Part shown: one piece after another, positions 1,649-57,305 of the stretch
How positions within the stretch are numbered: position 1 is the stretch's first letter
Layout of the letters: every line of letters begins with the position of its first letter
Origin: Nannobrachium achirus
Taxonomy: Eukaryota; Chordata; Actinopteri; Myctophiformes; Myctophidae
Direction: 5' to 3'
Length of the DNA: 64,000 nucleotides
NCBI GenBank assembly: GCA_963921795.1
Contig: OY997660.1
Location: forward strand, 2,402,245 to 2,466,244
Notes under the pieces: model-generated
Database searches by the model: none
What the model saw: only the letters and a program-made list of their open reading frames with translations
Told to the model about the DNA's origin: nothing
Translations under genes and position numbers: made by a program

Positions 1649-1999
1649 AACTGACCTGCTATGATGGTGGTAGCTTGTCTCGTCACTTGGTTCTATACTA
1701 ACTGACCTGCTATGATGGTGGTAGCTTGTCTCCTCACTTGGTTCTATACTAACTGACCTGCTATGATGGTGGTAGCTTGTCTCCTCACTTGGTTCTATAA
1801 TAACTGACCTGCTATGATGGTGGTAGCTTGTCTCCTCACTTGGTTCTATACTAACTGACCTGCTATGATGGTGGTAGCTTGTCTCCTCACTTGGTTCTAT
1901 ACTAACTGACCTGCTATGATGGTGGTAGCTTGTCTCCTCACTTGGTTCTATACTAACTGACCTGCTATGATGGTGGTAGCTTGTCTCCTCACTTGGTTC
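1649..1999 (-). repeat. 51-bp minisatellite built from ssbp1 exon 5 end plus donor site
   Basis: Seven units of 51 bp start at 1651, 1702, 1753, 1804, 1855, 1906 and 1957; the last is the real exon end. Each unit holds 38 bases of exon ([11 protein letters not shown] region) and 13 bases of intron including GCAG|GTCAGT. Copies differ by only one or two bases, so the expansion is recent. The period is a multiple of three. Confidence 0.9.
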
Positions 2000-2050
2000 T
2001 TGTCCACATATTCTCCGTAGTCCAGCTTCCCTTCAACCAGGACTCTGGCA
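1962..2050 (-). CDS. ssbp1: ssbp1 coding exon 5 (LEGKIDYGEY segment)
   Basis: The exon encodes [18 protein letters not shown], then [11 protein letters not shown], matching the family's [29 protein letters not shown]. The acceptor is TTATTGTCACAG; the donor GCAG|GTCAGT is at 1961-1960. The last 38 bases of this exon plus 13 bases of intron are repeated in tandem downstream (1649-1960), each copy carrying the same donor. The final coding exon was not found. Confidence 0.9.
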
Positions 2051-2200
2051 CTGTGACAATAAAAACACACACCGACAAACAGAGATGAATTGAATACACA
2101 GGAGCACAATGGAAACGTTGTGTTGTTATCCTCTTAGCAGAGTTTATGCATTAGAATCGTAGTGCTGTAATCTTTACAAAGATAAGTTAATGGATTAAAT

Positions 2201-2321
2201 GTGTGTGTGTGTGTGTGTGTGTGTGTGTGTGTGTGTGTGTGTGTGTGTGTGTGTGTGTGTGTGTGCGTGCGTGCGTGCGTGTGTGCGTGTGTGTGTGTGT
2301 GTGTGTGTGTGTGTGTGTGTG
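2201..2321. repeat. (GT)n microsatellite in ssbp1 intron
   Basis: About 120 bp of GT with a short GTGC interruption; it abuts the donor side of the exon ending at 2328. Confidence 0.95.
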
Positions 2322-2327
2322 CTCTAC

Positions 2328-2415
2328 CCTTTCTTAATGTAGTTGTAAGCCATGTCTCTCAGACCAGGTTTGAACACAGAGACTCGATGCCATGTGGTCT
2401 TCTGACTCATCTCTC
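2328..2415 (-). CDS. ssbp1: ssbp1 coding exon 4 (OB fold, second half)
   Basis: The exon encodes [20 protein letters not shown], then MAYNYIKKG. The family sequence is [29 protein letters not shown], so recognition is secure. Conserved Trp and aromatic residues that stack on DNA bases are present. The acceptor is GCGCCCTCTTCAG at 2416 onward and the donor is AAAGG|GTAGAG; phases are 1 in and 2 out. A (GT)n microsatellite begins within a few bases of the donor, 2201-2321. Confidence 0.9.
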
Positions 2416-2478
2416 CTGAAGAGGGCGCCAAACACAGCCGTTACCACACACACCTCCCAGCATATCTACAGTCTAGAG

Positions 2479-3378
2479 CCATGGGTCTCAACCTTTTCAG
2501 GCCACGACCCCCAAAATAACCATACTTAAACTGGGGACCCCCAAAATAATCATATTTTAACTGGGGACCCCCCACCCTGACGAGCAGTAAGAGTTGAGGC
2601 ATTGCATTTTGTATAACATTTTGTTGTATTGTGAAAATAGCAGATCTACATAATCACAACGCCTCGCGTTGTGAGCATTTTGTATCCCGAGGGCCTGGGA
2701 TTAAAGGGGGAGAAATAAAAAGAATGACCAATATGAGCGTATGAGGTGTGTAATTAGGGTATTTTGTGGCTGCTGAATCCATTCCAACCATAAGTTATCA
2801 GTAAAAAATACTCCTTGGCCATAAAATAGGCCACGAGACATATAATATTGGCAATAAAAAAAAGTTTGGAGTAGGGTTTGAATTCATGAAAACTATTCAA
2901 GATCAGGCGGGTAAGCACACATCATGACACACAGGATAACATGATGCAATCTGACAAGGAACACTCAAACACAGGGTTTAAAACATAGGGACTAACAGGA
3001 CACAGGTGAACTCGAATGACATGATTGGCTAAGCCTTAGCCAAGTAGGCCTATTTTATCGCCAAGGAGTCATTTTAACTGAAAACGAATGGTTGGAATGG
3101 ATTCAGCAGCCCAGAAATACCCTAATTACACACCTCATACACTCATATTGGCCATTTTAAATTTTTCCCCTTTAATCCCAGGCCCAGGGTATCCCGATAC
3201 CCCCAACCTTGATTGGCTCCCACAAAGTTTCTCAAGGGAGTTGTGATTGACAAAGTTCAGAGGTGATAGTAGACACCTTTATGAACACATTTGTGAAGAA
3301 AGCTATTGGTAACGATTTAGTTCCCTGATTGGTCAAAGACTGCTAACTTTCCCTTACTACACAAGTTGAGAACCACTG
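2479..3378. mobile_element. Non-autonomous hAT-type element (GGGGACCCCC family)
   Basis: The left end reads ATGGGTCTCAACC and the right end GTTGAGAACCACTG, imperfect inverted ends of the CAGTGGTTCTCAA type. Flanks gtctagag (2471-2478) and gtctagat (3379-3386) fit an 8-bp target duplication with one mismatch. There is no coding capacity. A worn copy of the AGCAGATCTACA hairpin lies at 2633-2690. Confidence 0.75.
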
Positions 3379-3926
3379 GTCTAGATCAGGGCTACTCAAC
3401 TTAAGATGGTTCAGGGGCCTCTCAGCAAAATACCAAAAGTCCAAGGACCACAAGCTAAAGATTACGGTCCTATTTTGGACATCTGTAACTCACTACATGA
3501 CTAGTCTAAACATGAAGGAAACACAGAAAACAGCCACATTTCCATCTATAATACCAAACCTCATTGAACAAAAACATTGTCATGGAACGATTAATAATGA
3601 AATGATGACGTTTTTTCTTTTGGAACAAACAAAATAGCAAAAAAAGTCACACACACAAAAATAAAGTCTTGTATAAAACAAGACGTAAATAGTTTTTTAG
3701 AGGTTTTGGAGAAAAACTGAAAATATCAGAAATGATTTGTCCACACTGACAGTAGAAAACATATTGCTATGACCATTACAGGTGATTTTGAGCTTGTAGA
3801 TTGGTTATTTTTGACAGTATATGCATTGTGGCTCTCTGGAGTGAGTGTGGAAATATAGTTGTCCTCTCCATCAAAGTTTCTCCATCCCTGACGTAGTTTG
3901 TCGTTAAACCCCACCATGGTACCCAC

Positions 3927-55389: not shown

Positions 55390-55775
55390 CACAGCTACCT
55401 TGGAGGCATTTTGGCCTTTGGCACAGATTGAGTTAACCACTTGAATCCTAGTGTCCATATTCTGGGAACTTTAGCCAAAAATAGCAGATCCGCGAGGCGT
55501 TGTGAGCTTGTAGATCGGCTATTTTCGGCAAAGAGGTTTGGTGTAGAGGGGGAAAAGAGCAGACTAAGTACAGAGTGAAAGGTCAAGTTTATTAAGTATT
55601 GACGGTTCAAGTGGTTCACTATCTGAAAACACACATTGACATGAATCCAAAATACACTGATGATTGTGCTGTCAAACAATGAAACTATATGGAATCTATG
55701 AACAGGTAGTGGGGGTCCCTGCTTCATCTCTCTCTCAGCTAAGGGGTCCTTGGCCTGAAAACGTTGAATACCCCT
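55390..55775. mobile_element. hAT-type fragment of the CCTGCTTCATCTCTC family
   Basis: It contains the hairpin remnant at 55475-55530, GGTCAAGTTTATTAAGTATT and GTTGAATACCCCTG at its right end (to about 55775), in the same order as 10950-11240. Confidence 0.65.
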
Positions 55776-55929
55776 GTTCTATGATGCATCACACTTTATG
55801 TAAGACAGAGTTTGACCTGAACTTTGAGGTATGTTTGCTTTACCAGAGTACAGTAACTCCACTACAATTATTTGAAAACTTTAGTTACTGGTCACTTTCT
55901 ATATTTAGATCTTTATTAAACATACATTA

Positions 55930-56095
55930 AGCCATTTGAAAATAGACAATCTACAAGCGATCTATACAAGCTCACACTGCGTTGCATCGCGACGCATTGT
56001 GAGCTTGTAGATCTGCTATCGTGACGCATTGTGAGCTTGTAGATCTGCTATCGTGACGCATTGTCAGCTTGTAGATCTGCTCATTTCAAAAGACT
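55930..56095. repeat. Hairpin module with tandemly repeated right arm
   Basis: A left arm (AAAATAGACAATCTACAAGC) is followed by three 38-bp copies of GACGCATTGTGAGCTTGTAG plus ATCTGCTATCGT, the third ending in CTCATTTC. Confidence 0.88.
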
Positions 56096-56327
56096 TGTCT
56101 ACAATTTATACATTTGAAAACTTGTGAAACGAGACATTCCGCATATTGAGTACTTTCTTTCTACGTTTGGTACTTTATACCAAAACCTTTGTAGGCTACT
56201 TTTACTCAAGTAAATTATTAATTCTGGACTTTTACAGAACAGAGTATTTCTACACTGTATTGATACTTTTACTCGAGCAAATGCATAATTGAATACTTTT
56301 TCCCACCACTGTTACTGTACACTGGAG

Positions 56328-56886
56328 CAGGGTTCCCAAACTCTTTTGTCTCAGGGCACCCCATAAATATTTTTTTTAATCCGAGGCACCCCAACATTAT
56401 AATTGTCACGCCCAGCACCTTATATTTATACTTTTATAGCATATCGTCGTTGTCGGGTGGAAACTTTGTATGTCCAAAACCGTTTGTTTTGTATTTATCA
56501 TTTATAAAATGTACTAAACTAGTGAAAACAGCAGATCTACAAGCACACAACGGCTGTTTTCACTAGTTTTGTGCGACAGTCTTGTATGATGAAGCAGGGC
56601 TTTGCTTTACCAAAAGACGTACACATTTGAAACTTGGAGATACAAGGTTTCTGCCCGACAGTGACGATATTTTAGTGATTATGTTGAGAGGAAAACATTC
56701 AGATAAAAGCCATTTTGGTTAGAACTGACTGAAAATAACTTTGTACTTCAAGTTTAAAATGATACTAAATATTTGTGTGTCCAAGTGTCCAAATAAATTC
56801 CAAATATTATCAAATGATCTCGCGGCACCCCTGGACTGCCGTCACGGCACCCCAGGGTGCCCCGTCACCCCAGGGTGCCCCGTCAC
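56328..56886. mobile_element. hAT-type element (GGCACCCC family) next to an SDS donor
   Basis: It starts CAGGGTTCCCAAACTC and runs to GGGTGCCCCGT; flanks are cactggag on both sides (about 56320-56327 and 56885-56892), although the usual right end CTTTGAAAACCTCTG is missing. The SDS exon donor follows within a few bases. A shortened hairpin lies at 56516-56569. Confidence 0.65.
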
Positions 56887-56896
56887 TGGAGGCTAC

Positions 56897-57043
56897 CTGT
56901 TGGCAGAGGTGTCCTATCCCTCGTATCTTGAAGGAGCCAGAGGGCTGGCAGCTCTCCATCTTCAGGTAGACGGGGGTTCCCAGCCGTTTGGACATGGAGA
57001 CGCTCTCTAGCAGGGGGGTGTTGATGTGGAAATGATCTGACAT
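56897..57043 (-). CDS. Serine/threonine dehydratase first coding exon (PLP lysine)
   Basis: The 147-bp exon encodes MSDHFHINTPLLESVSMSKR, then LGTPVYLKMESCQPSGSFKI and RGIGHLCQQ. SDS/SDSL have xxLHVxTPLxxSxxLSxxxGTxVYLKxxxxQPSGSFKIRGIGH, so the Lys in SGSFKIRG is the Schiff-base PLP lysine. The donor CAACAG|GTAGCC is acceptable. The ATG at 57043-57041 matches the family start. An in-frame ATG also lies upstream in the repeat array, giving a possible extension MSEHLKGFSLHIVPAAV. Together with 54559-54698 this is about a third of the usual 320-330 residues. Confidence 0.85.
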
Positions 57044-57305
57044 CACTGCTGCTGGCACTATGTGCAGAGAGAAACCCTTTAAATGCTCTGACATCACTGC
57101 AGAGAGAAACCCTTTAAATGCTCTGACATCACTGCAGAGAGAAACCCTTTAAATGCTCTGACATCACTGCAGCTACTGTGTGCAGAGAGAAACCCTTTAA
57201 ATGCTCTGACATCACTGCAGAGAGAAACCCTTTAAATGCTCTGACATCACTGCAGCTACTGTGTGCAGAGAGAAACCCTTTAAATGCTCTGACATCACTG
57301 CAGCT
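57036..57305 (-). repeat. 35-51 bp minisatellite repeating the SDS acceptor and start-codon region
   Basis: GACATCACTG (minus strand CAGTGATGTC) recurs at 57039, 57090, 57125, 57160, 57209, 57243 and 57291. Each unit reads TTTCTCTCTGCAG|TGATGTCAGA on the minus strand, i.e. a pyrimidine tract, an AG acceptor and an ATG. Isolated units encode the mini-frame MSEHLKGFSLQ followed by a stop. Confidence 0.88.

Follow-up and report, generated by a model that had tools for sequence, protein, structure and literature searches.

Why should minisatellites lie across the edges of coding exons and multiply the splice sites found there? The question is raised by a 64,000-nucleotide stretch of teleost DNA from Nannobrachium achirus (C23:2402245-2466244, hereafter the window), which carries three host genes, all on the minus strand: an NLR gene with FISNA-NACHT and PRY-SPRY domains (Pfam), ssbp1 (SSB) and SDS (PALP), the last represented by two coding exons. 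Tandem Repeats Finder (TRF) returned 89 rows for the window, which after merging gave 37 places with minisatellites and 27 with microsatellites, and TRF together with a reading of the minus strand shows that five of the 37 minisatellites span an exon boundary (Table 1). We consider it probable that these arrays are mirages, that is, minisatellites of the ordinary kind that began with a tandem duplication which chanced to include an exon/intron boundary, that were then spread by segmental amplification and whose decoy splice sites are neutral. As such, they look like a side effect of tandem duplication that is already on record and not like a new device.

The same two sources bear out the original prediction that each of the five arrays has a real exon boundary as its end unit and carries the splice site in every unit, with the extra copies lying on the intron side of a donor in four arrays and of an acceptor in one; the ssbp1 exon concerned, formerly counted as exon 5, is exon 6. 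In all five arrays the copy nearest the exon is the native site. All 29 donor copies of the four donor arrays (7+8+4+10) agree with their native donor in the first six intron bases, and one of the 29 deviates at intron base 8. That the extra copies are confined to the intron side may be understood because the protein would gain stops or residues if the array grew into the exon or if a donor farther downstream were used. TRF also yielded a sixth, weaker candidate that had not been predicted, at the acceptor and start codon of ssbp1 exon 2. Units of arrays A1 and A3-A6 were not found elsewhere in the window, and those of A2 resemble the junctions of the small NLR exons in the window. A search for the ssbp1 junction word in public viral contigs gave no match.

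Table 1. Junction arrays, the exons they adjoin and microsatellites next to exon boundaries (positions in the window)
Feature	Position	Strand	Description
A1, ssbp1 exon 6 donor array	1649..2000	-	51 bp, 7 units, 7 donors
ssbp1 exon 6	1962..2050	-	final 38 nt form the exonic part of the A1 unit
A2, NLR exon 1 donor array	44307..44949	-	about 67 bp with (CA)n inserts, 8 donors
NLR exon 1, including start codon	44940..45018	-	
A3, donor array of the third leucine-rich repeat (LRR) exon of NLR	23103..23347	-	73 bp, 4 donors; unit from exon ACTGG to intron ACTGG
NLR third LRR exon	23333..23485	-	
A4, SDS donor array	54122..54580	-	47 bp, 10 donors
SDS exon	54559..54698	-	residues about 64-112 of human SDS
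A5, SDS acceptor and ATG array	57030..57303	-	units 35-51 bp, 7 copies
SDS first coding exon	56897..57045	-	
A6 (candidate, weaker), ssbp1 exon 2 acceptor/start codon	7916..7980	-	27 bp x2.4
Microsatellite adjoining an exon boundary	21217-21268		
Microsatellite adjoining an exon boundary	4683-4752		
Microsatellite adjoining an exon boundary	4087-4189		
Microsatellite adjoining an exon boundary	2200-2321		

How such an array may begin is best seen at the third LRR exon. In genome-wide searches of the 1.66-Gb assembly, this exon with its donor was found in at least 40 places at 99-100% identity (40 of 300 candidates were scored), 20 of which, the window not being among them, were compared, with donors counted allowing two substitutions. 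One donor is present in 10 of the 20 places, two in eight, three in one and at least five in one, the window having four; the array is absent, that is, at half of the paralogous junctions compared. In the one-donor loci the word ACTGG occurs in the exon and again in the intron, 73 bp apart, with the donor between them, and doubling the one-donor locus L062 in silico between the two words gives the two-donor locus L060 with 0 mismatches over 185 bases. Furthermore, unit spacing is 73 bp in seven of the eight two-donor loci (79 in L061). The sequences thus compared fit a founding duplication between 5-bp direct repeats, in which the exonic and the intronic ACTGG would have been joined and the intervening segment doubled; the relation between the sequences is directly visible, and the direction and enzymology of the step are presumed. 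Single LRR loci may also have reverted secondarily from two copies to one. Founding microhomology was considered as a property specific to junctions and rejected, since a word of at least 5 bp common to both sides of the boundary is also present in eight of 12 array-free donors.

Later changes in copy number, visible as differences between gene copies, would have come about by unequal exchange or slippage, and segmental amplification of the NLR-ssbp1-SDS region, mainly on one chromosome, then spread the finished arrays, as is seen for ssbp1 and SDS. Vertebrate ssbp1 is usually a single-copy gene. Here, its 18 matches represent about seven gene places at C23:2.02-3.35 Mb, and none was found outside C23 (30 candidates, all scored). 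The ssbp1 donor array is present in all six copies that have exon 6, with 12, 7 (window), 9, 9, 6 and 15 units, implying that the array is older than the amplification of the gene; one of these copies (L045) has a further stretch of the 51-bp donor unit downstream. Closely behind the 51-bp array, the same intron of L042, L044 and L045 also contains another minisatellite, with 50-bp units. Tandem donors of SDS occur in all six gene copies, and the SDS acceptor query extends into the array in all seven exon-bearing places, two of which have matches as far as about 1.7 and 1.9 kb. For the NLR exon 1 array, one more full-length match lies at C23:2578754; the tandem matches on C5 and at C23:51.85 Mb are weaker, and those on C1, which are numerous, are single (57 matches, with 40 of 213 candidates scored). 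Copy number accordingly ranges between gene copies from 6 to 15 for ssbp1, from one to at least five for LRR and up to about 1.9 kb of array for the SDS acceptor. Although tandem repeats are known to cause errors in assemblies (PMC6868369, in part), that the arrays are an assembly artefact is scarcely credible: they recur with differing lengths and private variants in six (ssbp1), six (SDS donor) and seven (SDS acceptor) gene copies, and most LRR loci differ by whole 73-bp units.

Which of the repeated sites is used can be judged from the protein frame. Across the exon 6/7 junction, SSBP1 orthologs read ATTIIA-DNI (ATTIIV-DNI in one); identity of SSBP1 is 75% to Atlantic cod, and the best match, with a pipefish among the best, reaches 80% by search and 82-83% in alignment. 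In the ssbp1 copy at C23:3.345-3.349 Mb, which was followed through exons 4-7, exon 4 has a TAG acceptor, exon 6 a 12-unit array, and exon 7 lies 1,333 bp past the first donor. Only the first of the 12 donors yields the conserved end ...ATTIIADNIIFLSDNERDRV followed by a stop codon, and read-through meets a stop within the first unit. Because ssbp1 is required for mitochondrial DNA, correct splicing is probable for at least one copy with the array; moreover, the gene was seen in no place outside the array-bearing family. Within the window, no decoy donor of A1, A3 or A4 can be reached without passing an in-frame stop. Use of the second A2 donor would lengthen the reading by 54 nt (18 residues) with the frame kept, and the third A2 donor is still within an open frame but shifts it. 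In A5 the native ATG and the nearest copy upstream of it share a frame (17 extra residues), and the other five upstream copies head open reading frames (ORFs) of 11 or 27 codons. Pairing energy with U1 was tried as a guide to the donor in use and discarded, being equal in three of the four donor arrays and equal to the printed decimal in the fourth. Overall, the protein frame, the one ssbp1 copy followed and the equal substitution rates described below suggest that the exon-proximal site stays in use and that the intronic copies are neutral passengers. The earlier proposal that arrays of decoys are tolerated in this way is supported, the first of 12 donors being needed in the followed copy.

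The decoys might, however, be functional, their copy number tuning splicing through U1 occupancy or nonsense-mediated decay, or the upstream ATGs of SDS tuning translation. The unbroken series of donors in the window, the GT kept in 51 of 52 ssbp1 decoys (and lost in one) and the short ORFs headed by five of the six upstream ATGs would agree with such a role. Nevertheless, among the 52 ssbp1 decoy units, changes affect 3 of 312 sites in GTCAGT, compared with 28 of 1976 in the exon-like part (Fisher P 0.79), a comparison that has little power and in which eight of the 28 exon-like changes stem from one misaligned indel. As far as these counts go, the ssbp1 decoys appear to be conserved no better, and removed no faster, than the rest of the unit, and no function is indicated. 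Furthermore, copy numbers differ freely between gene copies, and high identity is what young, homogenised arrays are expected to have. We therefore regard function as very improbable, and found no evidence for the alternative exons or the U1 binding that had been proposed, given that the decoys of A1, A3 and A4 lie past an in-frame stop and those of ssbp1 change no more slowly than their surroundings.

Neutral decoys could still affect the protein in another way, by acting as a donor pool that rewrites the end of the coding exon, so that exon and decoys coevolve by exchange. In L045 (2.515 Mb) exon 6 has a lysine-to-asparagine coding difference that it has in common with the third, intronic unit, and in the window ssbp1 a variant of the intron part is common to the native unit and most decoys. 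Both shared variants could have arisen by chance or from a single ancestral duplication, and we consider such exchange rather unlikely. If general, it would make a junction minisatellite a local mutator of an essential protein, at a rate set by copy number.

Do five arrays on exon boundaries exceed what chance would place there? Boundaries were placed by hand, 29 in all and 45 when the eight small NLR exons are added, and two nulls were applied, both post hoc and to one chosen window. When boundaries are randomly shifted and the arrays are taken as finished objects (shift null), 3.8 overlaps are expected for 29 boundaries compared with five observed (P 0.37), and 6.0 for 45 boundaries (P 0.68). 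Minisatellites cover 13.8% of the window (12.8% without overlap with microsatellites), compared with a mean of 7.8% in 16 random 10-kb stretches of the genome, one of which, C20:13000001-13010000, consists to 64.6% of satellite (tandem repeat with units of at least 10 bp) and three of which contain 23-50% N; by this measure the window is repeat-rich. The argument from excess over chance is consequently weak, and the claim that the five overlaps are more than chance depends on the null: it fails under the shift null and holds under the one that follows.

Several results do weigh against a founding duplication that met the boundary by accident. When only a seed of unit length has to span a boundary (seed null), 0.70, 0.89 and 1.08 overlaps are expected for 29, 37 and 45 boundaries, compared with five observed (P 0.0008, 0.0022 and 0.005, respectively), and with the null limited to arrays of at least 2.9 copies three of 16 hit a boundary, compared with 0.35-0.54 expected (P 0.005-0.018). 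Moreover, at four of the 29 boundaries a microsatellite is found on the intron side at a distance of no more than 30 bp (0.32 expected), so that repeats may be denser at exon edges here than would follow from plain chance. The corresponding distance test for minisatellites (windows of 10-100 bp) was dropped, as its null positions fell only in non-repeat DNA whereas the real boundaries lie inside arrays; from this test the microsatellite rows alone were used. In addition, the founding repeat pair is clean for A3 only, the flanks of A1 having given no clean pair, and the genome-wide pattern control considered next is coarse, with one exact 9-mer, spacings of 31-61 bp and control words ranging from 95 to 15,407 places.

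The seed null and the microsatellites would suit the proposal, made in the original prediction, that splice-junction DNA itself promotes tandem duplication, for example through R-loops or a GT-rich donor. Yet the consensus donor CAGGTAAGT is found twice at 31-61 bp spacing in 243 places genome-wide, the reversed word in 470, a second word of the same letters in 15,407 (in dense clusters that are probably satellites) and the reverse of the latter in 95, so that tandem consensus donors show no excess over control words. Identical junctions are, moreover, mostly free of arrays: this holds for eight of nine junctions of the small-exon type of NLR in the window, as well as for the 10 one-donor LRR loci, and the LRR array is explained by its ACTGG pair. 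Considering also the shift null and the post hoc character of the statistic, which comes from one chosen window, we find this proposal unsupported and judge it improbable. At 31400-44000 of the window the small NLR exons stand in blocks of about 3.5 kb, with eight further CTGGACCTCCACACACACA-GTATG junction words, none of which has an array.

A different concern is whether the window genes are still alive. At the exon 4 acceptor of the window ssbp1 (4085-4189), a (GT)n run directly abuts the splice site, which reads (GT)nTGG, as in L031; (GT)nTAG is present in L029, L030 and L033. The AG is thus lost in two of the five ssbp1 copies in which the acceptor is readable, the window among them (L034 and L046 were left out). 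The last exon of the window ssbp1 was not recognised in the 20 kb beyond, and in SDS the exons after residue 112 are missing from the window, as is the short one between the two coding exons, for which a pattern search gave no match. Two of the three hosts, ssbp1 and SDS, may accordingly be damaged copies in the window. That they are dead duplicates, whose arrays would be uninformative on splicing, is a serious possibility, though one toward which we do not lean: the ssbp1 frame is open in the exons present, the same array occurs in the copy that keeps exons 4-7, and the NLR exons are open.

The window contains further repeats besides those at junctions. The 30-bp unit of a minisatellite at 51887-52495 resembles, by eye, a stretch of ssbp1 intron 4 (about 3820-3870), and both may come from a single mobile element. 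Many short pieces that contain AGATCTACAAGCTCACAACG and its complement and look like palindromes are found throughout the window (e.g. 20760-20800, 35040-35100 and 59950-59970), like a small inverted-repeat element. An ORF at 63347-63877 presumably resembles the GIY-YIG end of a Penelope-like element.

Human IFI6 reportedly has a minisatellite with multiple splice donors, as described by Turri in 1995. The comparisons that follow draw on parts of the papers cited. In IFI6 (6-16/G1P3) a minisatellite supplies splice donors (PMC4526556), and tandem-repeat units likewise supply donor sites in the arrays described here; two downstream units of IFI6 are reported to be in use, whereas here decoy use meets a stop in three of the four donor arrays. 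The closest parallel is found in amphioxus, where the paper on globins names such structures mirages, describes repeats at 5' and 3' boundaries with length variation, and shows by reverse transcription PCR (RT-PCR) that regular splicing is undisturbed (PMC3087553); to these, PMC3902484 adds PGBD5, Adh and troponin C. As in the amphioxus mirages (Adh3, globins, troponin C and PGBD5), the boundary here lies inside the repeats, the units contain the splice signal and copy number is variable. In contrast to amphioxus, the arrays described here are in a teleost, affect several genes of one amplified region and have been inherited by many gene copies, and for one of them loci with one copy and with two can be seen, together with the direct repeat at which it was founded; splicing, established by RT-PCR in amphioxus, is here read from the sequence of one ssbp1 copy. 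Introns gained when AG/GT proto-splice sites are duplicated in tandem (Rogers and later work, cited in PMC3087553) also involve tandem duplication of splice-signal DNA, but here an existing junction has been multiplied, and the arrays showed neither a new exon nor a new intron. The genome of Atlantic cod has a high density of tandem repeats (PMC5241972), a background like that of the window, in which junction hits become likelier; the word 'splice' has 0 occurrences in the main text of that paper, as far as it was available. Judged without full texts, the literature searched gave no description of a boundary-spanning minisatellite in a teleost, of a one-to-many series at one junction or of a gene found only in array-bearing copies.

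Arrays of this kind are a warning to gene predictors and RNA aligners, for which they create ambiguous junctions in repeat-rich fish genomes. The LRR loci, with one, two, three, four and at least five units and the founding 5-bp repeat pair, offer a natural series for the birth of a minisatellite. Finally, ssbp1 was found only as genes that lie behind 6-15 near-identical donors with the local sequence unchanged, and these genes provide a natural test of how the spliceosome chooses among such donors.

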